Assembly: GCA_002721785.1 (NCBI GenBank)
Contig: PBLO01000004.1
Location: 387,384-451,383 of the forward strand
Length of the DNA stretch: 64,000 nucleotides
Origin: Halieaceae bacterium
GTDB lineage: Bacteria > Pseudomonadota > Gammaproteobacteria > Pseudomonadales > Halieaceae
Reading direction: 5' to 3'
Under the pieces are notes generated by a model. The model did not search any database, had not been told where the DNA came from, and saw only the letters and a program-made list of their open reading frames with translations. The translations under genes were made by a program, and so were the position numbers. Below are positions 19,790 to 30,280 of this stretch, piece by piece. Every line of letters starts with the position of its first letter. The stretch's first letter is position 1.

Positions 19790-21319
19790 TTACCCCGCTT
19801 CGCGATACGCATCCTGAAGGTGGCGCTTGTAAAGCTTGCCGTTATCCATTCTGGGGAGTTGCTCGAGGAAGTCGATCTTCCGCGGCACCTTGACCGTCGA
19901 GAGACGCTCTCGCATCCACTCAATCAGCTCAGCCTCCGTCTCGTCGTTCGCATCAGACCAAGTCAGCGGCTGCACCACCGCCATGACCTCTTCGCCAAAC
20001 TCCGGGTGAGGAATCCCGAAAACCGCCACATCGGCAACCTTCTCATGCGCGATCAGAAGGCCCTCAATCTCTGCGGGGTAGACGTTCACACCCCCCGTGA
20101 TGATGGTGAAATTTTTGCGGTCGGTGAGGTACAAAAAGCCCTCTTCATCGAGGTAACCCACGTCACCCATGGTGCTCCAACCCTGCTCGTTAAAGGCGTT
20201 CTTGGTTTTTTCTGGCTCATCGAAGTACTCAAATGGGCGGCTGTTGGCGAAGTAGACGTCGCCCACCTCACCCGGACCCAGAACCTCACCGTTTTCATCG
20301 AGGATCCTCGGTTCGCCAATGATCGCCTGTCCAACTGAACCTTTGTGTGTCAGCCAGTTGGCAGAATCAATGATCGTAAACCCATTGCCTTCACTGCCCG
20401 AGTAGTACTCAACGATCACCGGCCCCCACCATTCGATCATGGCCTCTTTCACGTCTACAGGGCACGGGGCCGCGGCGTGAATAGCGCACTTCATCGAGCT
20501 GAGGTCGTATCGCGTTCGCGATGCCTCCGGAAGTTTCAGCATTCGAACAAACATAATGGGCACCCACTGGCTGTGAGTCGCTTTGTATTGCTCAATAAGC
20601 TGTAGGGAATGCTCTGGATCGAAGTGCTCCATGATGAGCGACGTTCCACCTAGCCCCAGCACCATCAAGTTGTAGTGTAGAGGCGCCGCGTGATACAGCG
20701 GCGCGGGCGACAGGTAAATCGTGTTCACATCAAAACCAAAGAAGGCCCCAACACTACCCGACAAGGCGTGGTCGGCGTGAATACTCTCCGCATGGGGCGC
20801 CCAGTAAACGCCTTTTGGCTTACCCGTAGTACCCGAGGAGTACAGCATCGGAGCGCCCAAAAACTCATCCTCAATCGGCGTTGAAGGCAAATCTGCCAAC
20901 GCTTCATCCAGCGCTTCAAACCCCGCTATGTCACCGCCTACAGACAAACATCTCGTCAACCCTGGCGCAGCCGCAGCGGCTTCGGTAGCGACATGTACCA
21001 GTTCTGCGGAAGCGACAAATAACTTCGCCTTGCAGTTGGTGATGATGTAGGCCGTCTCGTCTTCCTTCAGGTGAGTGCTGATTGGGGTGAAAATAATGCC
21101 CGCCCGATTGGCCGCCTGCGCAACCTGCAAAAACTCCGGACAGTTCTTCATCATCATGGCGATGTGGTCGCCCCGCTGTACGCCTGATGCTCGAAGCAAA
21201 TGCGCGATCTGATTTGATTTGCGATCCAGCTCCGAATAGGTCACGACCTGCCCGGAACTCGCCATGATGTAGGCGGGACGATCGGGTGTCTCAGCGGCAT
21301 AAGATGAAAAATGCGGCAT
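19790..21319 (-). CDS. AMP-dependent acyl-CoA synthetase
   Basis: MLYSSGTTGKPKGVYW, YYSGSEGNGFT, GWSTMGDVGYLDEEGFLYLTDRKNFTIITGGVNVYPAEIE. Confidence 0.94.
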   Translation of the reverse strand: MPHFSSYAAETPDRPAYIMASSGQVVTYSELDRKSNQIAHLLRASGVQRGDHIAMMMKNCPEFLQVAQAANRAGIIFTPISTHLKEDETAYIITNCKAKLFVASAELVHVATEAAAAAPGLTRCLSVGGDIAGFEALDEALADLPSTPIEDEFLGAPMLYSSGTTGKPKGVYWAPHAESIHADHALSGSVGAFFGFDVNTIYLSPAPLYHAAPLHYNLMVLGLGGTSLIMEHFDPEHSLQLIEQYKATHSQWVPIMFVRMLKLPEASRTRYDLSSMKCAIHAAAPCPVDVKEAMIEWWGPVIVEYYSGSEGNGFTIIDSANWLTHKGSVGQAIIGEPRILDENGEVLGPGEVGDVYFANSRPFEYFDEPEKTKNAFNEQGWSTMGDVGYLDEEGFLYLTDRKNFTIITGGVNVYPAEIEGLLIAHEKVADVAVFGIPHPEFGEEVMAVVQPLTWSDANDETEAELIEWMRERLSTVKVPRKIDFLEQLPRMDNGKLYKRHLQDAYREAG

Positions 21320-21376: not shown

Positions 21377-22177
21377 ATGGTAGCGGCGACCGCCACAATG
21401 TCAGGAGCAGATATTCGCAGGTTATCCAGATCTGCGGAGTTCTCCGGCCAAACCTCGGGGGTCGCTGCGGGCTACGTACAGTGCAACATCGTGATTCTGC
21501 CCCGAGACACGGCTGATCACTTCGCGCAATTTTGCGCCCTGAATCCCAAACCTTGCCCCCTGCTTGCCGTTAGCCCTGAGCCGGGGGACTACCGGCTGCC
21601 TGACTTGGGAGAGGATATCGACATCAGGCGTGACGTCCCCCGCTACCGCATCTGGCGCGACGGCATATTCACGGAGCAATGCGAGAGCATCGAGCAGCTC
21701 TGGCAACAGGATTGGGTGGCCTTTGCACTCGGGTGTTCTTTCTCCTTCGAGGAGGCACTGATTAAATCGGGTATCGAGGTAAGAAACATCAGTGAGCAAT
21801 GCAACGTGCCCATGTATCGCACCAATATTGACTGCACGCCAGCGGGCCCCTTCGAGGGAAAATTGGTTGTCAGTATGAGGCCCATGCCCGCATCAAATGC
21901 GATTGAAGCGATACAGATTTGCGGCCGTTACCCGAGAGTTCACGGCGCGCCGGTGCACTTCGGTGACCCCACCCTGATTGGGATTACCGACCTGCAGCAA
22001 CCCGATTTCGGAGACGCCGTGTCGGTGCGCCCAGAGGATGTCCCGGTATTCTGGGCATGTGGTGTAACACCACAAGTGGCTCTGGAAGCGGCAGAACTTC
22101 CTGTGGCGATCACCCACGAACCGGGCCATATGCTCGTGACGGACCTAAAAAATGAGGAGCTGGCGGGCCCGCTATGA
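21377..22177 (+). CDS. D-Glu_cyclase (DUF1445/UPF0317, YcsI-like) family protein
   Basis: SGVAAGYVQCNIVILPRDTADHFAQFCALNPKPCPLLAVSPEPGD, FALGCSFSFEEALI, MYRTNIDCTPAGPFEGKLVVSMRPM, CGVTPQ, ITHEPGHMLVTDL. Track ORF begins at 21311; internal ATG 21377 is more likely. Confidence 0.88.
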   Translation: MVAATATMSGADIRRLSRSAEFSGQTSGVAAGYVQCNIVILPRDTADHFAQFCALNPKPCPLLAVSPEPGDYRLPDLGEDIDIRRDVPRYRIWRDGIFTEQCESIEQLWQQDWVAFALGCSFSFEEALIKSGIEVRNISEQCNVPMYRTNIDCTPAGPFEGKLVVSMRPMPASNAIEAIQICGRYPRVHGAPVHFGDPTLIGITDLQQPDFGDAVSVRPEDVPVFWACGVTPQVALEAAELPVAITHEPGHMLVTDLKNEELAGPL

Positions 22178-22914
22178 CGACAAATCTCACCTTGAACTGC
22201 GACATGGGCGAAGGATTTGGCCCGTGGAACATGGGCGATGACCACAGCATCATGCCCCTCATTGACGCTGCCAACATTGCCTGTGGCGGTCACGCGGGTG
22301 ACCCCACGACAATGCGCACCTGCGTTGAACTGGCCAAACGCCACAAAACAGAAATCGGTGCACACGTGTCTTACCCTGACAAACAGGGCTTCGGTCGGCG
22401 CGCGATGGATATCACCGGGCAGTCGCTGATTGATCTCATTCATTATCAAATAGGCGCGTTGGATGGCATTGCGCGCGCGCACGGCACACGAGTTGCCTAC
22501 GTCAAACCCCATGGGGCGCTTTACCACGCGATGCTGGCAGATGTGGGTGTGCTCAACGACATCATGGCAGCCGTTGCCAGCTGGCATGCCGAACTCGAAT
22601 TAGTTGTGCTCGCCACACCGCGAGATCGTAAAACTCTCCAACTAGCCGTGGAACATGGTCTCACGCTGCGATATGAGGCCTTTGCCGACCGCGGCTACAC
22701 CAGTCGAGGATTACTGCTCAGTCGTAACAAGCCCGGCGCCGTCCTGGACGCCAAGCAGGCCGCGAAACAGGCGAAGGCTATCGCGCAAAATACCCTTAAG
22801 ACACCCCGAGGTCGGCGTATTCCCGTCAACGCCGATACGCTTTGCGTGCACAGTGATTCGCCCGGTGCGGTACAAATGATCGCAGCGATTCGTAAAGCAC
22901 TGGACGGACTCTGA
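22174..22914 (+). CDS. pxpA: 5-oxoprolinase subunit A (LamB/YcsF family)
   Basis: TTNLTLNCDMGEGFGPWNMGDD, ANIACGGHAGDPTTM, GAHVSYPDKQGFGRRAM, VKPHGALY, LCVHSDSPGAV; ATGA overlap with upstream gene. Confidence 0.95.
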   Translation: MTTNLTLNCDMGEGFGPWNMGDDHSIMPLIDAANIACGGHAGDPTTMRTCVELAKRHKTEIGAHVSYPDKQGFGRRAMDITGQSLIDLIHYQIGALDGIARAHGTRVAYVKPHGALYHAMLADVGVLNDIMAAVASWHAELELVVLATPRDRKTLQLAVEHGLTLRYEAFADRGYTSRGLLLSRNKPGAVLDAKQAAKQAKAIAQNTLKTPRGRRIPVNADTLCVHSDSPGAVQMIAAIRKALDGL

Positions 22915-22917
22915 CCC

Positions 22918-23610
22918 GTGTTCGAGGTGGGCCCCGCAGGTGAAGAGGGCCTCAGGCTTGTTTTCCTTGAGGCGCCCCGCCCAGCCCTGACGCGCTGTCT
23001 GCTCCGCATTCAGTCCGCAGCCCAGGGCTATTTTGCGGAAAATCTGGCAGACAGCGTCGTGGGCTATACGACGCTTACCCTGCTCTTTCATCCGTTCCGC
23101 CTTGAGCGTGACCGCGCTGAAGCCTGGCTCACTGAACAAGCTGACTGTGCAACGCTGACCGATTCTGATGACCAGAGTCTCACCGGAACCGTGGTGACGC
23201 TACCGGTGCTCTACCACCCGAGCGTCGCGCCTGACCTCGAATGGCTGGCCGACCAAAAAAATATCAGTGTCGACCAGATTATCGCGCTACATACGGGTAC
23301 GACCTACTTTGCCTATGCAACGGGCTTCGCGCCCGGCTTTTGCTATCTGGGCGACCTACCAACAGAGTTGGCTACGCCACGGCTGGCTGATCCGCGCGCG
23401 GCGGTGCCCGCAGGCGCGGTGGGTTTGGCAGATCGGCAGACTGCCGTCTACCCCGGCATATCGCCAGGGGGATGGCGATTAATCGGGTCATGTCCGAGAC
23501 CGCTCTTTCAGAACGGCGAACATCCGACTGCCTACTTGGCGGTGGGGGATTCGGTGCGATTTGAAGCCATTACCCCTCAGGAATACCGGAAGTTCGGAGG
23601 CGAACTGTGA
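22918..23610 (+). CDS. pxpB: 5-oxoprolinase subunit B (KipI family)
   Basis: GTG start; LPVLYHPSVAPDLEWLA, YFAYATGFAPGFCYLGDLPTELATPRLADPRAAVPAGAVGLADRQTAVYPGISPGGWRLIG. Confidence 0.94.
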   Translation: MFEVGPAGEEGLRLVFLEAPRPALTRCLLRIQSAAQGYFAENLADSVVGYTTLTLLFHPFRLERDRAEAWLTEQADCATLTDSDDQSLTGTVVTLPVLYHPSVAPDLEWLADQKNISVDQIIALHTGTTYFAYATGFAPGFCYLGDLPTELATPRLADPRAAVPAGAVGLADRQTAVYPGISPGGWRLIGSCPRPLFQNGEHPTAYLAVGDSVRFEAITPQEYRKFGGEL

Positions 23611-24533
23611 GGGAGCTCGTCATTCACCAATCGGGCCCGGCCGCCAGCATTCAAGACAGCGGAAGAAGCGGCTGCCTCCAATTGGGGATCCCCCCCGCCG
23701 GCGCGATGGATGCCGATGCGCTGGCCAGCGGCCAATACCTTCTTGGACATAGCGCCGATGAAGCTGCCATCGAGATGGCGTATGGCAATCTGGTGGCCAG
23801 CCCGACCGAGCCCTGTCACATCGCCGTGACAGGGGCCGCCGTGGATCTGCGCATCGACAGTATCAGCGCTCGCATGCACACCGTGCTGCGAGTCGAAGCC
23901 GGCCAGCAGATCCAGATTACCCCCGGCGCAGTCGGCGTCTACAGCTATCTCCATGTGGACGGCGGAATCGATACACCAGAAACCCTGGGAAGCCGAAGCA
24001 CCTCGGCGAGAGAGGGTGTTGGCGGTTTCGATGGCCGACGCCTGATGAATGGTGATTGTCTCCCACTTGGAGAGCCGAATGAGCCCCCAAGCGACCGCGC
24101 TGGCGATCTGACCCATACCCCACCCGGGGATCTGATTAGATTGCGGTTCGTACCCGGATTTCAGTACGCATTAATGCAGCCCGATGTCATCGCCGCGCTG
24201 TGTGAAAATGATTTCGTGGTGACGCCAAAAGCCAATCGGATGGGCGCACAGCTTGAGGGGAGCCGTCTCGACACGGGCATCGAGACATTACTCTCCGAGG
24301 CGACTACCCATGGCGCCATACAAATTCCGCCCGGCGGCCAACCCATCGTGCTACTCAATGACCGTCAAGCGGTGGGCGGCTACCCCAAGCCCGGCGCAGT
24401 GATCCGGAGCGACTGTCGACGGCTTGCACAAGCCCGCCCGGGTCAAAGGGTGCGCTTTTCACTCTGCTCTCCACAAGAAGCAGACAGGATAAGCTGGCTG
24501 GAACAACACTATCGAGATACGCGACTGTCATGA
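23607..24533 (+). CDS. pxpC: 5-oxoprolinase subunit C (KipA / biotin-dependent carboxyltransferase-like)
   Basis: GPAASIQDSGRSGCLQLGIPPAGAMD, GVYSYLHVDGGID, LGSRSTSAREGVGGFDGRRL, RMGAQLEGSRL, VLLNDRQAVGGYPKPGAVI. Confidence 0.93.
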   Translation: MRELVIHQSGPAASIQDSGRSGCLQLGIPPAGAMDADALASGQYLLGHSADEAAIEMAYGNLVASPTEPCHIAVTGAAVDLRIDSISARMHTVLRVEAGQQIQITPGAVGVYSYLHVDGGIDTPETLGSRSTSAREGVGGFDGRRLMNGDCLPLGEPNEPPSDRAGDLTHTPPGDLIRLRFVPGFQYALMQPDVIAALCENDFVVTPKANRMGAQLEGSRLDTGIETLLSEATTHGAIQIPPGGQPIVLLNDRQAVGGYPKPGAVIRSDCRRLAQARPGQRVRFSLCSPQEADRISWLEQHYRDTRLS

Positions 24534-25372
24534 CGCCACCTGACACGCTCAACCTTTCCCGCTCGATCGAGTCGTTATTGACCCGCCAGAACCATCGCGG
24601 CATGGACGACATCAGGCAAACGCTACAACCCGGCTATTTATTGCGGGCCGCGCAAACATTGCTGGACCGCCCCGGCAATGTCTTCATTCTGACAGGCTTC
24701 CCGGTGGCAGATACGTTTGAGACTGATGGTCCCGCTGGCGCGTTAGCCTTATATCGTCTGGCGCAGCGCCTCGGCAGTGCGCCAACCATCATTTCAGATA
24801 CAGCCCTCGTCAGCGCGCTACGAGACACCTGCGACTGCCACACCATCTCGGGCGACAGTCAATTGGACGCCCAAGCGCTCTACGCAGTCCGTTCCCCTCA
24901 GCTAGTCATCAGTATCGAGCGACCGGGCGCGTCTGCCGACGGCCGCTACTACAACATGGCAGGCGAAGACATATCGTCTGCTTGTTCGGCGGCAGAACCC
25001 TATCTAGCACTTGCCAACTGCCCTACCATAGCCATTGGTGACGGGGGCAATGAAGTAGGAATGGGGAACGCAGTCACAGCGCTGTCTAGCCTGAATATTC
25101 AACCAGCAGTGAGCACGGTTGATGAACTTATCGTCGCAGATGTGTCGAACTGGGCAGCCTACGCGCTATGCGCCCTCACAGACTGGCTCGCAGGGGACAC
25201 CACAGAGAGCATGACGCGTTTTCACGCTGACCTTGAGACATTGGTTGCGCGTGGCGCAGTAGATGGCGTCACGCGTGAGCCGACGGCCACAGAAGATGGA
25301 TTCCCGCTCTCGGATACCACTGCACTAATAAGCGATATCGCTCAACTCCTTTCAAAAGGATCTGTCGCATGA
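24530..25372 (+). CDS. DUF4392 / D-glutamate cyclase-like C-terminal domain protein
   Basis: FILTGFPVADTFETDGPAGALALYRLAQRLG, VISIERPGASADGRYYNMAGEDIS, TIAIGDGGNEVGMGN; ATGA overlaps at both ends. Confidence 0.83.
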   Translation: MTPPDTLNLSRSIESLLTRQNHRGMDDIRQTLQPGYLLRAAQTLLDRPGNVFILTGFPVADTFETDGPAGALALYRLAQRLGSAPTIISDTALVSALRDTCDCHTISGDSQLDAQALYAVRSPQLVISIERPGASADGRYYNMAGEDISSACSAAEPYLALANCPTIAIGDGGNEVGMGNAVTALSSLNIQPAVSTVDELIVADVSNWAAYALCALTDWLAGDTTESMTRFHADLETLVARGAVDGVTREPTATEDGFPLSDTTALISDIAQLLSKGSVA

Positions 25373-26229
25373 CCCAGGCCTATCTCAATGGGGCGTTTAC
25401 AGCGCTGGAAGACGCCCACATCTCGCCAATGGACAGAGGCTTCCTGTTTGGAGACGGGGTGTACGAAGTCATACCCTGTTATGACGGACAGCTCGTGGCA
25501 ATGCCCTACCATCTGGAACGGTTAGCGCAGTCATTGAGCGGGATTGCGCTCACATCCCCCCACAGCGATGATGCCCTGACAAGCATCCTGACGGAACTGG
25601 TCAATCGCAATGGGGGCGGTGACCTCGGCGTCTACCTGCAGATCACTCGGGGCGCCGCGCCTAAACGCCAGCATGCGTTTCCCGAACACATCGAACCCAC
25701 TGTATTTGCCTACACCTTCGCTATCACCCCACCGTCGGATGGCAGCCCTGAGACAGCCAAATGCTTTTCAGCCGTAACACGCACCGATCAACGATGGGAC
25801 CGATGTCACATCAAATCCACTGCCCTGCTCGGCAACGTGCTTCACATGATGGAAGCGATTGATGCGGGGGCTGAGGAAGTGTTGCTGTTCAACAGCGACG
25901 ATGAGCTGACAGAAGCAGCGGCATGCAACGTGTTTGTGGTCTGCAACGGTACTGTCCTCACCCCAGCGCTCGATCATCAAATACTGCCCGGCGTAACGCG
26001 TCGGCAATGCTTAGAGCTGCTGGAGGCACACACTGACTGGCCGGTCGAGATCCGGCCGGTCTTGCGCCAAGAGGTAGCCCAGGCTGAAGAGATCTGGCTC
26101 AGCTCCTCCACCAAAGAACTTGCACCGATCGTGAAACTCGATGGCAAGGCAGTGGGCGATGGCAAACCCGGCAGAATGTGGGCCGTTGCGCAGAAGCTCT
26201 TCAACGAATACCGCTTCAGCGCCAACTGA
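25369..26229 (+). CDS. D-amino acid aminotransferase-like PLP class IV aminotransferase
   Basis: MTQAYLNGAFTALEDAHISPMDRGFLFGDGVYEVIPCYDG, IKSTALLGNVLHMMEAIDAGAEEVLLFNSDDELTEAAACNVFVV. Confidence 0.88.
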   Translation: MTQAYLNGAFTALEDAHISPMDRGFLFGDGVYEVIPCYDGQLVAMPYHLERLAQSLSGIALTSPHSDDALTSILTELVNRNGGGDLGVYLQITRGAAPKRQHAFPEHIEPTVFAYTFAITPPSDGSPETAKCFSAVTRTDQRWDRCHIKSTALLGNVLHMMEAIDAGAEEVLLFNSDDELTEAAACNVFVVCNGTVLTPALDHQILPGVTRRQCLELLEAHTDWPVEIRPVLRQEVAQAEEIWLSSSTKELAPIVKLDGKAVGDGKPGRMWAVAQKLFNEYRFSAN

Positions 26230-27296
26230 TGCCCCGATCTACCCGCATTAACATCGACCTTGGCGCAATCCTGCACAACGCCGGGGTGTTGCGCGCGGCA
26301 GCAGGCGACAAGCACGTAATGGCCGTCGTCAAAGCCGACGCGTACGGGCACGGCGCGGTGCCGGTCGCGACCCATATCGAGGGGACGGTTGACGCGTTTG
26401 CGGTCGCACTGATCGAAGAAGCCGTCACACTTCGCGACGCCGGCGTAACCAAGCCGATACTGGTACTCGAGGGGCCGCACTGTTCGGTGGATCTCGCGCT
26501 CTGCGTGCACCTCAATATTTGGCCCACCCTGCACCGGGCAGATCAACTGGACTGGTGTCACGCACTCACTGAGAAGCCAGAGCAGGTGTGGCTCAAGATT
26601 GACACCGGCATGCACAGGCTGGGATTCCAACCGGTGCAGGCGCAATCGATTACTCAACAACTCAAGGCAGACGGCATCAAAGCGGTCGTCGCGATGTCGC
26701 ATCTCGCAGCCGCTGAAACCCCGGATTCTGAGCTGTCGGTGACACAGAAAACGACATGGGATAGCGCGACCACCCACTGGGAGGACGAAACCAGCCTGCA
26801 CAACTCCGCAGCCACACGACTGGCGACCCCCGCACGGAGCACATGGGCGCGGATTGGTTATGCGCTTTATGGGGGGCAGATTGAAGGGCTAGAGCGCGAT
26901 CCTCGACTCAAGCCGGCCATGACACTCGTCAGCTCTGTTCTGGCCACGCGGCGCATTACACAGGGCGATAGTGTGGGTTACGGGGGGCGATGGACAGCAG
27001 AGAGAGACAGCGTCATCGCCACTGTCCCGGTTGGGTACGGTGACGGCTATCCCTGGGCTGCCGCAGATGGCACACCTGTGGCAATCGGTGAGCATCTGGC
27101 GCCCCTCGCTGGGCGGGTATCTATGGATATGATCACCGTCGATGTTACAGATTGTGGCGAGATCCCATGCGATATGCCCGTGACTTTGTGGGGCGACCAA
27201 CCGCACATCGACACGGTAGCGTGTCACGCAGGAACAATTGGCTACGAACTGATGACGCGGCTCACTCAGCGCGCACCTCGGCACTATCTTCGATGA
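26229..27296 (+). CDS. alr: Alanine racemase
   Basis: RINIDLGAILHNAGVLRAAAGDKHVMAVVKADAYGHGAVPVA (PLP Lys), WLKIDTGMHRLGF, VGYGGRWTA, VPVGYGDGYP, GRVSMDMITVDVTD; TGATG junction with upstream gene. Confidence 0.94.
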   Translation: MPRSTRINIDLGAILHNAGVLRAAAGDKHVMAVVKADAYGHGAVPVATHIEGTVDAFAVALIEEAVTLRDAGVTKPILVLEGPHCSVDLALCVHLNIWPTLHRADQLDWCHALTEKPEQVWLKIDTGMHRLGFQPVQAQSITQQLKADGIKAVVAMSHLAAAETPDSELSVTQKTTWDSATTHWEDETSLHNSAATRLATPARSTWARIGYALYGGQIEGLERDPRLKPAMTLVSSVLATRRITQGDSVGYGGRWTAERDSVIATVPVGYGDGYPWAAADGTPVAIGEHLAPLAGRVSMDMITVDVTDCGEIPCDMPVTLWGDQPHIDTVACHAGTIGYELMTRLTQRAPRHYLR

Positions 27297-27446: not shown

Positions 27447-28952
27447 ATGGCCAATGAGCCGACGGAAGCTGAAACCTTACTGAGCGCAATTGACCTGGGC
27501 AGTAACTCCTTTCACCTGATTATCGCCAAATCAGATTTTGGAGAGCTGCGACCAGTTCAGACGCTGGCAGAAAAGGTTCAACTGGGCGAGACATCCGGCA
27601 AAGGCACGCTCACCAAGGCAGCCATCTCGCGGGGCCTGGCATGCCTTGAGCGCTTCAAACAGCTAATCGACAGCACCGCTCCCGCAAAAATCCGGGTAGT
27701 GGGCACCAACGCCCTGCGGCGCGCCAAAAACCGGATGGATTTTATTGAACCCGCAGAGCAAATCCTCGGCGCACCCATTGACGTGATTTACGGACGGGAA
27801 GAGGCGAGATTGATCTACCTCGGCGTGGCGCACACCCTGTCTGACGATGAAGACACGCGTCTTGTTGTGGACATCGGTGGGGGCAGCACGGAATTCATTT
27901 TGGGCCAGCGGTTTGAGCCGATCAGACTAGAGAGTCTTCAGATGGGGTGCGTTTCCTACGGCGAGGCTTTCTTCCCAGACGGGGAGATCACACGAGAACG
28001 ATTCGATGCCGCCTATCATCGCGCACGCATCGAGGTATCGCACATCCGCAGAAACTACCACCGGGAAATGTGGCACGAGGCGGTGGGTTCGTCGGGAACG
28101 CTGCGGGCAATTGAGACTCTGATCACTACCGCAGGCTGGCGCGAATCCGGTATCGATCGCCCTAGCCTTGCGGAGCTGCGCAAACAGCTTTTGTCGTTCC
28201 GCCACATAGAAGAAATCGACCTACCCGGACTCAGCGAAACCCGTAAAGGCGTCGTGACGGCCGGGCTCGCCATAACTATGGGGCTTTTTGACGGTCTACA
28301 GGTGCAAGAAATGCGCACCTCGTCTGGCGCATTACGCGAGGGTGTCATCTACGATCTCATTGGACGGTTTAGCCACGAGGACGTGCGGAATCGGAGCATT
28401 TCTGCGATGCAACAGCGTTACTCCGTCGATCAGCGCGTAGCCGATCTCGTTGCCGAACGCGTAGCCCTCCTCGCTGGGGCCACCCGGACCAGTTGGCAAC
28501 TTGACGACGGTGACGCCGAATTACTGCGTTGGGCTGGCGCCTTGCACGAGATCGGCATCGCCATTTCCCAGAAAAACTATTCGCAGCACTCCGCCTACCT
28601 GGTGCTTAACACCGACCTACCCGGCTTCGCGCAGCAAGATCAGGAGACGATGGCAGCACTGATCGCCGGCCTCAAGGGAAAACCCCGGTCAGAACTGCTG
28701 AATCCGATTGCTAAACGGAAACGACTCAACGTTGCGAGAATGATGGTGCTTCTGAGGTTGGCCGTTATCTTCAAGCACGTAGAAGCACTGGAGACGATCC
28801 CTGCGCTGAGCGTCTCAGCGCATGACAATACGCTGACGGTATCGGTCCCCGAGGACTGGGGAAAGGAACATCCCCTCACAATCTGGGAGATAGAGCAGAG
28901 CGCCTCTGCGGTTGAGAGGCTCGGCATTGAGTTGGTGCTGCGCCAGAATTGA
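27447..28952 (+). CDS. ppx: Exopolyphosphatase / guanosine pentaphosphate phosphohydrolase family
   Basis: AIDLGSNSFHLIIAKSD, GTNALRRAKN, VVDIGGGSTEFILG, SSGALREGVIYDLIGR. Confidence 0.94.
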   Translation: MANEPTEAETLLSAIDLGSNSFHLIIAKSDFGELRPVQTLAEKVQLGETSGKGTLTKAAISRGLACLERFKQLIDSTAPAKIRVVGTNALRRAKNRMDFIEPAEQILGAPIDVIYGREEARLIYLGVAHTLSDDEDTRLVVDIGGGSTEFILGQRFEPIRLESLQMGCVSYGEAFFPDGEITRERFDAAYHRARIEVSHIRRNYHREMWHEAVGSSGTLRAIETLITTAGWRESGIDRPSLAELRKQLLSFRHIEEIDLPGLSETRKGVVTAGLAITMGLFDGLQVQEMRTSSGALREGVIYDLIGRFSHEDVRNRSISAMQQRYSVDQRVADLVAERVALLAGATRTSWQLDDGDAELLRWAGALHEIGIAISQKNYSQHSAYLVLNTDLPGFAQQDQETMAALIAGLKGKPRSELLNPIAKRKRLNVARMMVLLRLAVIFKHVEALETIPALSVSAHDNTLTVSVPEDWGKEHPLTIWEIEQSASAVERLGIELVLRQN

Positions 28953-28969: not shown

Positions 28970-30280
28970 TCAGAGGTCGTAGCCCCGCTCGTCGTGCAAG
29001 ACGATATCAAGCCCGGCCGTTTCGTCTTCCTGGTCGACGCGCAACGACACCATCGCATCCACCACCTTGAGCAATATCCAGCTGAGTACTGCCGTGTAGA
29101 TGAACGTGGCAGCGATTCCAGTCAGCTGAATACCCAGCTGGCCGCCGATACTATCGACGCCATCTGAAAAACCGTTGCCACTAAACAGGCCTAATGAGGG
29201 CGAGCAGAAAATACCCGCCATAACGAGCCCCAACATGCCGCCTACGCCGTGAACTGGAAAAACGTCGAGACTATCGTCAATGCCGAGGCGATTTTTCAGC
29301 GTGATCGTCGCGAAGTAACACACCACGCCTGCAGAGAGTCCAATCACCACTGCCCCCGCCGGGCCAACCGAACCGGATGCAGGGGTAATGGTCCCCAGCC
29401 CCGCGACCATGCCTGTCACAATACCCAGGACAGAGGGCTTGCCGTGGCGGAGCCACTCCATTGCCATCCACGCCAATGAACCACAAGCAGCCGATAAATG
29501 CGTCACCAGCATTGCCATGGCGGCACTACTGTCTGCTGCAACCGCTGAGCCCGCATTGAACCCAAACCACCCTACCCACAGCATGCCAGCGCCGGTAACC
29601 GTCATGGTGAGGTTGTGCGGTGGCATCGCGGTCTGACCGAAACCACGTCGGCCACCCAGGGACATCGCCGCCACCAAGGCCGCGACGCCTGCGGTAATGT
29701 GCACCACGGCGCCACCCGCGAAGTCCTGCAGGCCCATGTTGCCCAGCCAACCGCCGCCCCAAACCCAATGGCACACGGGGGCGTACACCAGAATCAGCCA
29801 GAGAGAGCTGAAAATGAGCATGGCTGAAAACCGCATTCGCTCAGCAAAACCGCCGACTATCAGTGCGGGGGTAATGACGGCGAACGTCAGCTGAAACATG
29901 ACAAACAGCGTCTCGGGAATGGAGCCGTTCACGCTATCCATGCTGACCTTTGCCAAGAAAAGATTGCCCAAATCGCCAATCCAGGGGCCCTGCTCCACAC
30001 CCCCGGAGCCAAAGGCAAGGGTGTAACCCACAACAAACCACAGGACCGACATCAATGCCGTCAGCGCGAAGCATTGCATCAGAACCGATAGAACGTTTTT
30101 GACACGCACCAAACCAGCATAGAACAGCGACAGGCCCGGAATCGTCATAAACAGCACCAAGGCCGTCGAAGTCAGCATCCACGCCGTGTCGGCACCAGAG
30201 ACGGTGTCAGCCATCGCGGGCCCACTCAACAAAGCGGAGAAAATCAGAGCACAAGAACGTCTGCTGGCGATTCCAGTCAT
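28970..30280 (-). CDS. amtB: Ammonium transporter
   Basis: DTAWMLTSTALVLFMTIPGLSLFYAGLVRVKNVLSVLMQCF, GDLGNLFL, FAGGAVVHITAGVAALVAAMSLGGRRG, HGVGGMLG; Amt-family membrane topology. Confidence 0.95.
   Translation of the reverse strand: MTGIASRRSCALIFSALLSGPAMADTVSGADTAWMLTSTALVLFMTIPGLSLFYAGLVRVKNVLSVLMQCFALTALMSVLWFVVGYTLAFGSGGVEQGPWIGDLGNLFLAKVSMDSVNGSIPETLFVMFQLTFAVITPALIVGGFAERMRFSAMLIFSSLWLILVYAPVCHWVWGGGWLGNMGLQDFAGGAVVHITAGVAALVAAMSLGGRRGFGQTAMPPHNLTMTVTGAGMLWVGWFGFNAGSAVAADSSAAMAMLVTHLSAACGSLAWMAMEWLRHGKPSVLGIVTGMVAGLGTITPASGSVGPAGAVVIGLSAGVVCYFATITLKNRLGIDDSLDVFPVHGVGGMLGLVMAGIFCSPSLGLFSGNGFSDGVDSIGGQLGIQLTGIAATFIYTAVLSWILLKVVDAMVSLRVDQEDETAGLDIVLHDERGYDL

Follow-up and report, generated by a model that had tools for sequence, protein, structure and literature searches.

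Why would a bacterium of the Halieaceae couple an alanine racemase and a D-amino acid transaminase to the two domains of D-glutamate cyclase and to a putative 5-oxoprolinase, and in which direction do these enzymes run? The question is raised by a gene cluster at 21377–27296 of the window, the whole 64,000-nucleotide stretch of DNA analyzed here. Direct reading of the ORFs confirms that the cluster comprises seven genes on one strand, as a sequence-only reading had described, and that all of their junctions are overlaps of 1–4 nt or a 3-nt spacing. The order is DUF1445–pxpA–pxpB–pxpC–DUF4392–Dat–alr, and the genes and their flanks are as follows.

19790–21319, minus strand: acyl-CoA ligase (FadD-like; AMP-binding, PF00501), divergent, upstream flank outside the unit
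21377–22177, plus strand: DUF1445/“D-Glu_cyclase” protein (PF07286, UPF0317, YcsI-like), 266 aa; PF07286 1.5e-67
22174–22914, plus strand: pxpA (LamB/YcsF), 246 aa; PF03746 5e-88; NCBIfam PxpA subfamily 312 bits, cut-off 213
22918–23610, plus strand: pxpB-like carboxyltransferase C/D domain protein, 230 aa; PF02682 3e-54; TIGR00370 141.1 bits (cut-off 145.55)
23607–24533, plus strand: pxpC-like carboxyltransferase A/B domain protein, 308 aa; PF02626 3e-78; TIGR00724 237.8 bits
24530–25372, plus strand: DUF4392/GLUCM-like C-terminal domain protein, 280 aa; PF14336 2e-59; TON_0340 structures
25369–26229, plus strand: Dat, canonical D-amino acid transaminase, 286 aa; PF01063 9e-52
26229–27296, plus strand: alr, alanine racemase, 355 aa; PF01168/PF00842 1e-57/1e-39; TIGR00492 302 bits
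27447–28952, plus strand: Ppx/GppA phosphatase, downstream flank; PF02541 5e-73

Results

Architecture and Conservation of the Cluster

ATGA overlaps join DUF1445 to pxpA, pxpC to DUF4392, and DUF4392 to Dat; pxpB and pxpC share a GTGA overlap, pxpA and pxpB are separated by a 3-nt gap, and Dat meets alr in a TGATG with a 1-nt overlap. The DUF1445 gene has a further in-frame ATG at 21311. All seven proteins score far over the Pfam cut-offs for their families, and the gene names originally given are correct on these matches, with caution for PxpB and PxpC, which fall under equivalog cut-offs. Scans for sigma-70 promoters and terminators gave no promoter signal beyond shuffled expectation. Of the flanking genes, the Ppx/GppA phosphatase adjoins the cluster or lies within a few kb of it in f1 loci and is kept only inside the window's family, and AMP-binding enzymes are found among the flanking genes in just a few loci.

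Of 40 other loci in the order, 29 preserve the complete seven-gene arrangement, at protein identities of 33–65%; among 80 named loci the same seven genes stand in order in 30, with 28 more showing the same order without alr. Thus, the arrangement is not due to chance, and the neighborhood is conserved far beyond the close strains to which it might have been confined. Other marine Gammaproteobacteria keep the order, usually without alr, and Alteromonadales-type loci have no alr in the cluster at all. Most carriers are marine heterotrophs. Several clusters contain a LysR-type regulator, and a check of 78 proteins flanking 30 loci found no conserved transporter beside the cluster. Two kinds of partial loss are seen: reduced or streamlined relatives (L073, L076) retain Dat–Alr and have dropped the cyclase and Pxp genes, and the f13 genomes retain PxpABC plus Dat–Alr, with DUF1445 and DUF4392 gone. 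No description of this gene cluster was found in the literature on D-glutamate cyclase, DUF4392, DUF1445, DGLUCY, 5-oxo-D-proline, or the gene combination; the operon is a novel variant built from known parts.

Alr, Dat, and the Missing Glutamate Racemase

The product of alr is the sole alanine racemase match in the window genome by family search, and it has both Pfam domains and a TIGR00492 score well identifying it as such (302 bits, cut-off 168). Alanine racemase is single-copy in 12 of 12 sampled family genomes and lies in the cluster each time, so it is presumably essential and anabolic in this family. The glutamate racemase MurI, in contrast, gave no TIGR00067 match in any of the 12 sampled family genomes, the window genome included; completeness is 99–100% for 11 of these 12 genomes and 91% for the window genome.

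Across 298 genomes of the order, a transaminase of this Dat type is present in 67 of 74 that lack MurI versus 37 of 224 that have it (Fisher p 2e-31; family-stratified permutation, 0 of 20000). The closest solved relatives of the window's Dat are the D-amino acid aminotransferases 4pbc and 1daa. Canonical fold IV D-amino acid transaminases carry the motif F26/Y31/[VA]33/[KRPT]35, xYxQ, and RxH (PMC10003956), and the corresponding carboxylate trap is found here as F27, Y32, V34, P36, VYLQ, and R100-x-H102. R100, H102, and Y32 are invariant across 23 cluster homologues, but outside the window the Q of xYxQ is mostly H in these homologues. The NCBIfam D-amino-acid transaminase model, TIGR01121, is the best match, although at 232.8 bits Dat falls below its cut-off of 277.45 and hence is not filed as that equivalog. 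Bowmanella and Lacimicrobium, whose clusters have no linked Dat, were considered as Dat-less bacteria that obtain D-Glu via DUF4392; this was rejected, as both carry a cluster-type Dat elsewhere (1e-141 and 1e-138).

A Putative Split D-Glutamate Cyclase

In mouse DGLUCY, DUF1445 is fused to DUF4392 and the enzyme converts D-Glu to 5-oxo-D-proline (PMC5339696), an activity known for no other such protein. The two domains of the mammalian protein (9030617O03Rik/C14orf159) (PMC5339696, PMC5132392) are both present here, but not in one polypeptide: each has its own gene, the two lie 2.4 kb from each other with pxpABC in between, and both are coupled to Dat and Alr. The DUF1445 protein matches the PSPTO_5379 structure 2pif at 288 bits, and its AlphaFold model (pLDDT 92) retrieves 2pif in Foldseek with an E value of 9e-32 and, weakly, the NrpR-like domain MJ0159 (3nek; E 6e-6). 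The metal ligands of TON_0340, which has been reported to be a weak Mn-dependent phosphatase, are E59, D61, E115, D157, E161, and D246 (PMC5132392). The metal-site acids of the DUF4392 protein, E64, D66, E130, D171, E175, and D256, are all six conserved and are invariant in 25 and 28 homologues.

DUF1445 occurs in 25 of 25 DUF4392-positive genomes versus 1 of 28 DUF4392-negative ones, also where the two genes are unlinked. MurI is absent from 31 of 41 DUF4392 carriers compared with 43 of 257 noncarriers (stratified p 5e-5). This association was dropped as the main signal when conditioning on Dat showed that Dat carries much of it. Moreover, the other 10 of the 41 carriers also have MurI, and a Dat homologue occurs without DUF4392 in 36 genomes that lack MurI, so MurI can be lost without a D-Glu drain and such a drain can exist beside MurI. 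Within family f32, five genomes without MurI carry DUF1445, DUF4392, and Dat, and the six with MurI have none of the three; two of these six (L191, L192) still hold PxpABC and Alr side by side.

A Divergent PxpABC

PxpA has a single match in the window genome, and each sampled family genome has one PxpA, always in the cluster. The subunit make-up is that of PxpABC, with A from the LamB/YcsF family and B and C consisting of carboxyltransferase domains. PxpB lies just under the NCBI equivalog cut-off for TIGR00370 (141.1 versus 145.55 bits); PxpC reaches 218.6 bits against an equivalog cut-off of 500 and passes that of the general domain model TIGR00724 (237.8 versus 230.2). As judged from their domains, the window's PxpB and PxpC probably work like those of 5-oxoprolinase, with no claim to equivalog membership.

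All three subunits are shared with the PxpABC systems of B. subtilis (ycs/kip), E. coli (ybgJKL), and C. glutamicum (pxpTABC), and in B. subtilis DUF1445 (ycsI) accompanies the pxp genes, as it does here (PMC10448178). The present system differs in belonging to a divergent subfamily and in being joined to DUF4392, Dat, and Alr. In trees, PxpA and PxpC of the cluster largely form their own subfamily, and the E. coli copy falls outside the cluster clade. The idea of a strictly separate clade for the cluster PxpABC held only in part: the trees show four or five changes of label, and the window and its genus mate fall outside the main cluster clade, on long branches.

Discussion

The present analysis suggests that the operon probably serves bacteria devoid of glutamate racemase as a D-Ala/D-Glu supply-and-drain unit. 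Alr would convert L-Ala to D-Ala, and Dat would use D-Ala and 2-oxoglutarate to form D-Glu for peptidoglycan. DUF1445 and DUF4392, acting as a split cyclase, would turn surplus or recovered D-Glu into 5-oxoproline, the lactam of which PxpABC would reopen with ATP to give glutamate, so that a MurI-less cell could both make D-Glu and return it to the glutamate pool. The gene content and its conservation, the catalytic motifs, the single-copy Alr, the absence of MurI, the complementarity of Dat and MurI, and the co-occurrence of DUF1445 and DUF4392 are observed; the enzyme activities and the direction of flux are what we infer from them. The drain half is likewise predicted, as is its stereochemistry: because known PxpABC takes 5-oxo-L-proline and DGLUCY yields the D form, passage from 5-oxo-D-proline to L-Glu would require PxpABC to be relaxed in specificity or a further step to epimerize the lactam. 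Other points also weigh against this model: Dat works reversibly and could remove D-Glu alone, the window's PxpB and PxpC fall under the 5-oxoprolinase equivalog cut-offs, TON_0340 is reported to be a weak phosphatase, and completeness of the window genome is 91%.

The sequence-only reading had the whole operon funneling exogenous D-amino acids through D-Glu and 5-oxoproline to glutamate. The same enzymes are able to run in that catabolic direction, the carriers are mostly marine heterotrophs, and a LysR-type regulator is common to several clusters and many catabolic operons. Nevertheless, we regard a catabolic operon as unlikely. Alr is single-copy, MurI is absent from all 12 family genomes, Dat tracks MurI loss, reduced genomes keep only Dat–Alr, and no transporter is a conserved neighbor, all of which argues that Alr and Dat are primarily biosynthetic; alr is also wholly missing from Alteromonadales-type loci. 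Thus, from the genes present, Alr and Dat are best read as the D-Ala/D-Glu supply for peptidoglycan. What survives of the funnel is its course from D-Glu via 5-oxoproline to Glu, which DUF1445, DUF4392, and PxpABC naturally suggest and which is better seen as D-Glu disposal or homeostasis, alongside which salvage of external D-amino acids may occur.

Two further explanations give PxpABC a different task. It could recycle 5-oxoproline formed spontaneously from Gln and Glu, with the D-amino acid genes cotranscribed because the glutamate pool supplies both, and with DUF1445 and DUF4392 in another small role. Such damage repair would fit the exactly one PxpA per family genome, the adjacency of PxpABC and Alr in the f32 loci minus the D-Glu genes, and the f13 genomes that hold PxpABC and Dat–Alr alone; it appears quite improbable, however, as it leaves unexplained both the joint pattern of DUF1445, DUF4392, and Dat, inverse to that of MurI in f32, and their long-range conserved order with PxpABC. 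Still less probable is a proof-reading loop, in which 5-oxo-D-proline derived from D-Glu would be the substrate of the cyclase pair and PxpABC, and D-Glu would be regained for the wall. The separation of the cluster PxpA and PxpC from E. coli PxpABC means that a D-specific lactamase is possible, and Dat-derived D-Glu would be costly to lose, but the cyclase would feed a futile ATP cycle and PxpABC, as the only copy in the genome, must handle the L-lactam too.

Within the supply-and-drain reading, a tentative and rather doubtful proposal is that DUF1445 and DUF4392 constitute a putative two-component enzyme converting D-Glu to 5-oxo-L-proline, one protein cyclizing and the other inverting the alpha carbon, and that with PxpABC they form an ATP-driven, one-way converter of D-Glu to L-Glu. 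If this is true, the converter would be a nonracemase replacement for MurI acting in reverse, and the persistence of the two domains as a pair from bacteria to vertebrates would be explained.

Almost no bacterial wall can be built without D-Glu, and MurI serves as a drug target. Where present, MurD2/MurL or a bifunctional DapF would be a competing source of D-Glu. The MurD2/MurL pathway of Xanthomonas, another gammaproteobacterial replacement for MurI, consists of unrelated proteins, and D-amino acid aminotransferase, the canonical motif of which is present here, is a known MurI alternative (PMC8788868). The present case differs from that known route in that Dat lies within an operon holding putative D-Glu cyclase and 5-oxoprolinase genes and in that the MurI swap is visible over a whole order. 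The DgcN/DgcA D-Glu catabolism of Yu et al. 2023 reportedly proceeds via N-acetylated intermediates with enzymes unlike those here. It resembles the predicted drain in leading from D-Glu to L-Glu in marine bacteria, specifically Proteobacteria (cited in PMC12363236).

The two domains of human D-glutamate cyclase are poorly understood; the operon places them in a genetic context, predicts their partnership, and makes the question of which cyclase domain does what, along with the stereospecificity of PxpABC, directly testable on small bacterial proteins. In its carriers, the cluster looks like the cell's only means of making cell-wall D-amino acids, combined with an outlet for surplus D-Glu. A broad group of marine Gammaproteobacteria has apparently exchanged MurI for Alr and Dat, with what would be a dedicated D-Glu outlet alongside.

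Results

The sequence-only reading had named seven tightly joined genes in the window; rereading of the sequence bore out the genes and their junctions, and Pfam bore out the family names. The cluster and the genes beyond it lie as follows:

21377–27296, one strand: DUF1445, pxpA, pxpB, pxpC, DUF4392, dat (D-amino acid transaminase), alr (alanine racemase)
27447–28952, downstream of alr: Ppx/GppA phosphatase gene, conserved within the family
28970–30280, opposite strand, past the Ppx/GppA gene: AmtB-like ammonium transporter ORF

Flanking genes show no conservation past the family, and among those compared no transporter recurs beside the cluster. DUF4392 (PF14336) scored above cut-off in 41 of the 298 genomes sampled from the order, the nearest relatives of the window copy being from Halieaceae and Luminiphilus (54–57% identity), which makes a marine gammaproteobacterium of Halieaceae type the likeliest source of the window. 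When 20-kb neighbourhoods were compared for 40 of these 41 genomes, the complete seven-gene order was kept at 29 of the 40 loci, with the others either lying at contig ends or being variants. Scanning genome-wide yielded 80 named loci, of which 30 have all seven genes in order, 28 lack alr with the order otherwise the same, and one (L154) has alr shifted to the front; alr-less carriers include Rheinheimera, Alishewanella, Marinobacterium, Amphritea, Colwellia, and Thalassotalea. In many relatives, DUF4392 and dat are separated by a gene for a LysR-type regulator (e.g., L038:8257-9237, L110:9850-10737, and L136:12904-13854), which the window lacks. Amphritea-type loci additionally contain a gene resembling PLP-dependent synthases along with an Lrp/AsnC-like regulator, and the clusters at L063:7612-11913, L065:7433-10988, and L153:7461 onwards have PxpA with no PxpB or PxpC between it and DUF4392.

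The cluster alr is the only alanine racemase gene of the window genome, and all 12 sampled family genomes have exactly one, inside the cluster. None of the 12, 11 of them 99–100% complete, has glutamate racemase (MurI), genomes being counted as MurI-less when the TIGR00067 match was absent or weak only (E above 1e-15). With Dat presence scored over the order as a match to the cluster-Dat profile at E ≤ 1e-50, cluster-type Dat occurs in 67/74 MurI-less versus 37/224 MurI-bearing genomes (Fisher p 2e-31). Because the sampled genomes, although evenly drawn, are related, within-family permutation gives the safer figure: an overlap of 56.5 on average and 64 at maximum, against the observed 67. The inverse pattern persists among genomes without DUF4392 (36/43 MurI-less versus 29/214 MurI-bearing). 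Outside the order, cluster-bearing, MurI-less genomes with no Dat at the locus, such as those of Bowmanella and Lacimicrobium, have a cluster-type Dat elsewhere. In five genomes of family f42 (G079, G108, G161, G204, and G264; 96–100% complete), MurI is absent and no Dat match falls below 1e-50; the best Dat matches there lie at 2e-23 to 7e-31 or are missing altogether. In the window Dat, the canonical D-amino acid transaminase motif is complete, and the closest solved structures to this protein are D-amino acid aminotransferases, a recognised alternative source of D-Glu (PMC8788868). Strong family evidence and the complementarity with MurI thus indicate that the Alr and Dat of the cluster are biosynthetic.

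Natural deletions separate the parts of the cluster. G043, a MurI-less genome of 1.3 Mb, retains Dat–Alr and is missing both DUF1445 and DUF4392; in G138, Dat–Alr is retained behind a prolyl-tRNA synthetase gene. Two genomes of family f13 have PxpABC, a phosphoribosyltransferase, Dat, and Alr without DUF1445 or DUF4392. At L074:8633-15297, in a MurI-less genome without DUF1445 or DUF4392, this arrangement follows RecJ. In family f32, DUF1445, DUF4392, and Dat are present in 5/5 MurI-less genomes and all absent from 6/6 with MurI, two of which (G178 and G259) still have PxpABC adjacent to Alr. PxpABC is followed by Alr at L191:4249-7780 and L192:488-4146, in MurI-bearing relatives lacking DUF1445, DUF4392, and Dat.

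Across 53 genomes picked from different families, DUF1445 was found in 25/25 DUF4392-bearing versus 1/28 DUF4392-less genomes, and in three (G003, G106, and G137) both are present though far apart, a distribution suggesting that the two are partners. In vertebrates the two domains are fused in a protein that converts D-Glu to 5-oxo-D-proline, and its loss leads to D-Glu accumulation (PMC5339696). The window DUF4392 conserves 6/6 metal-binding acids of TON_0340, a relative with solved structures, which its structural model also matches. A structure search with the window DUF1445 found solved structures of its own family, plus a weak match to an NrpR-like domain. NrpR is a sensor of 2-oxoglutarate, so that a C5-dicarboxylate ligand for DUF1445 may be entertained as a lead only. 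At G596:C2:1139447-1142134, a weak Asp/Glu racemase match lies between two DUF4392 domains in one 3586-aa open frame, a fusion that further ties DUF4392 to glutamate stereochemistry.

PxpABC is the sole copy in family genomes and must therefore also handle ordinary 5-oxo-L-proline, if this is repaired at all. In trees, the cluster copies group apart from the E. coli type (4 and 5 label changes versus ~17 when shuffled). The PxpA and PxpC sequences from the window, like those from its genus mate, form long branches outside the main cluster clade, and the window PxpB and PxpC score under the equivalog cut-offs. In the genus of the window, PxpA and PxpC (22174–24533 in the window) are unusually divergent despite the retained gene order, reflecting either fast evolution or in-place replacement.

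Discussion

The individual parts of this cluster are already known. A literature search, largely without subscription journals, found no account of their union in one conserved operon, of its inverse relation to MurI, or of the partnership between the two cyclase domains.

We propose that Alr would convert L-Ala to D-Ala, from which Dat, with 2-oxoglutarate, would form D-Glu and pyruvate; DUF1445 and DUF4392 would then cyclize surplus D-Glu to 5-oxoproline, which PxpABC would open with ATP to Glu. The Alr and Dat steps draw strong support from family evidence and MurI complementarity; the later steps are inferred from family relations. The known substrate of PxpABC is the L lactam. Animal D-glutamate cyclase (DGLUCY) yields the D lactam (PMC5339696), a stereochemical mismatch that would be solved by inversion of the centre by the DUF1445/DUF4392 pair or by a PxpABC that takes the D form. 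Since MurI is also present in 10 DUF4392-bearing genomes, the drain formed by DUF1445, DUF4392, and PxpABC is not restricted to MurI-less cells. Collectively, the natural-deletion patterns argue that a cell without MurI must keep Dat–Alr, and that DUF1445 and DUF4392 form a dispensable, D-Glu-specific addition.
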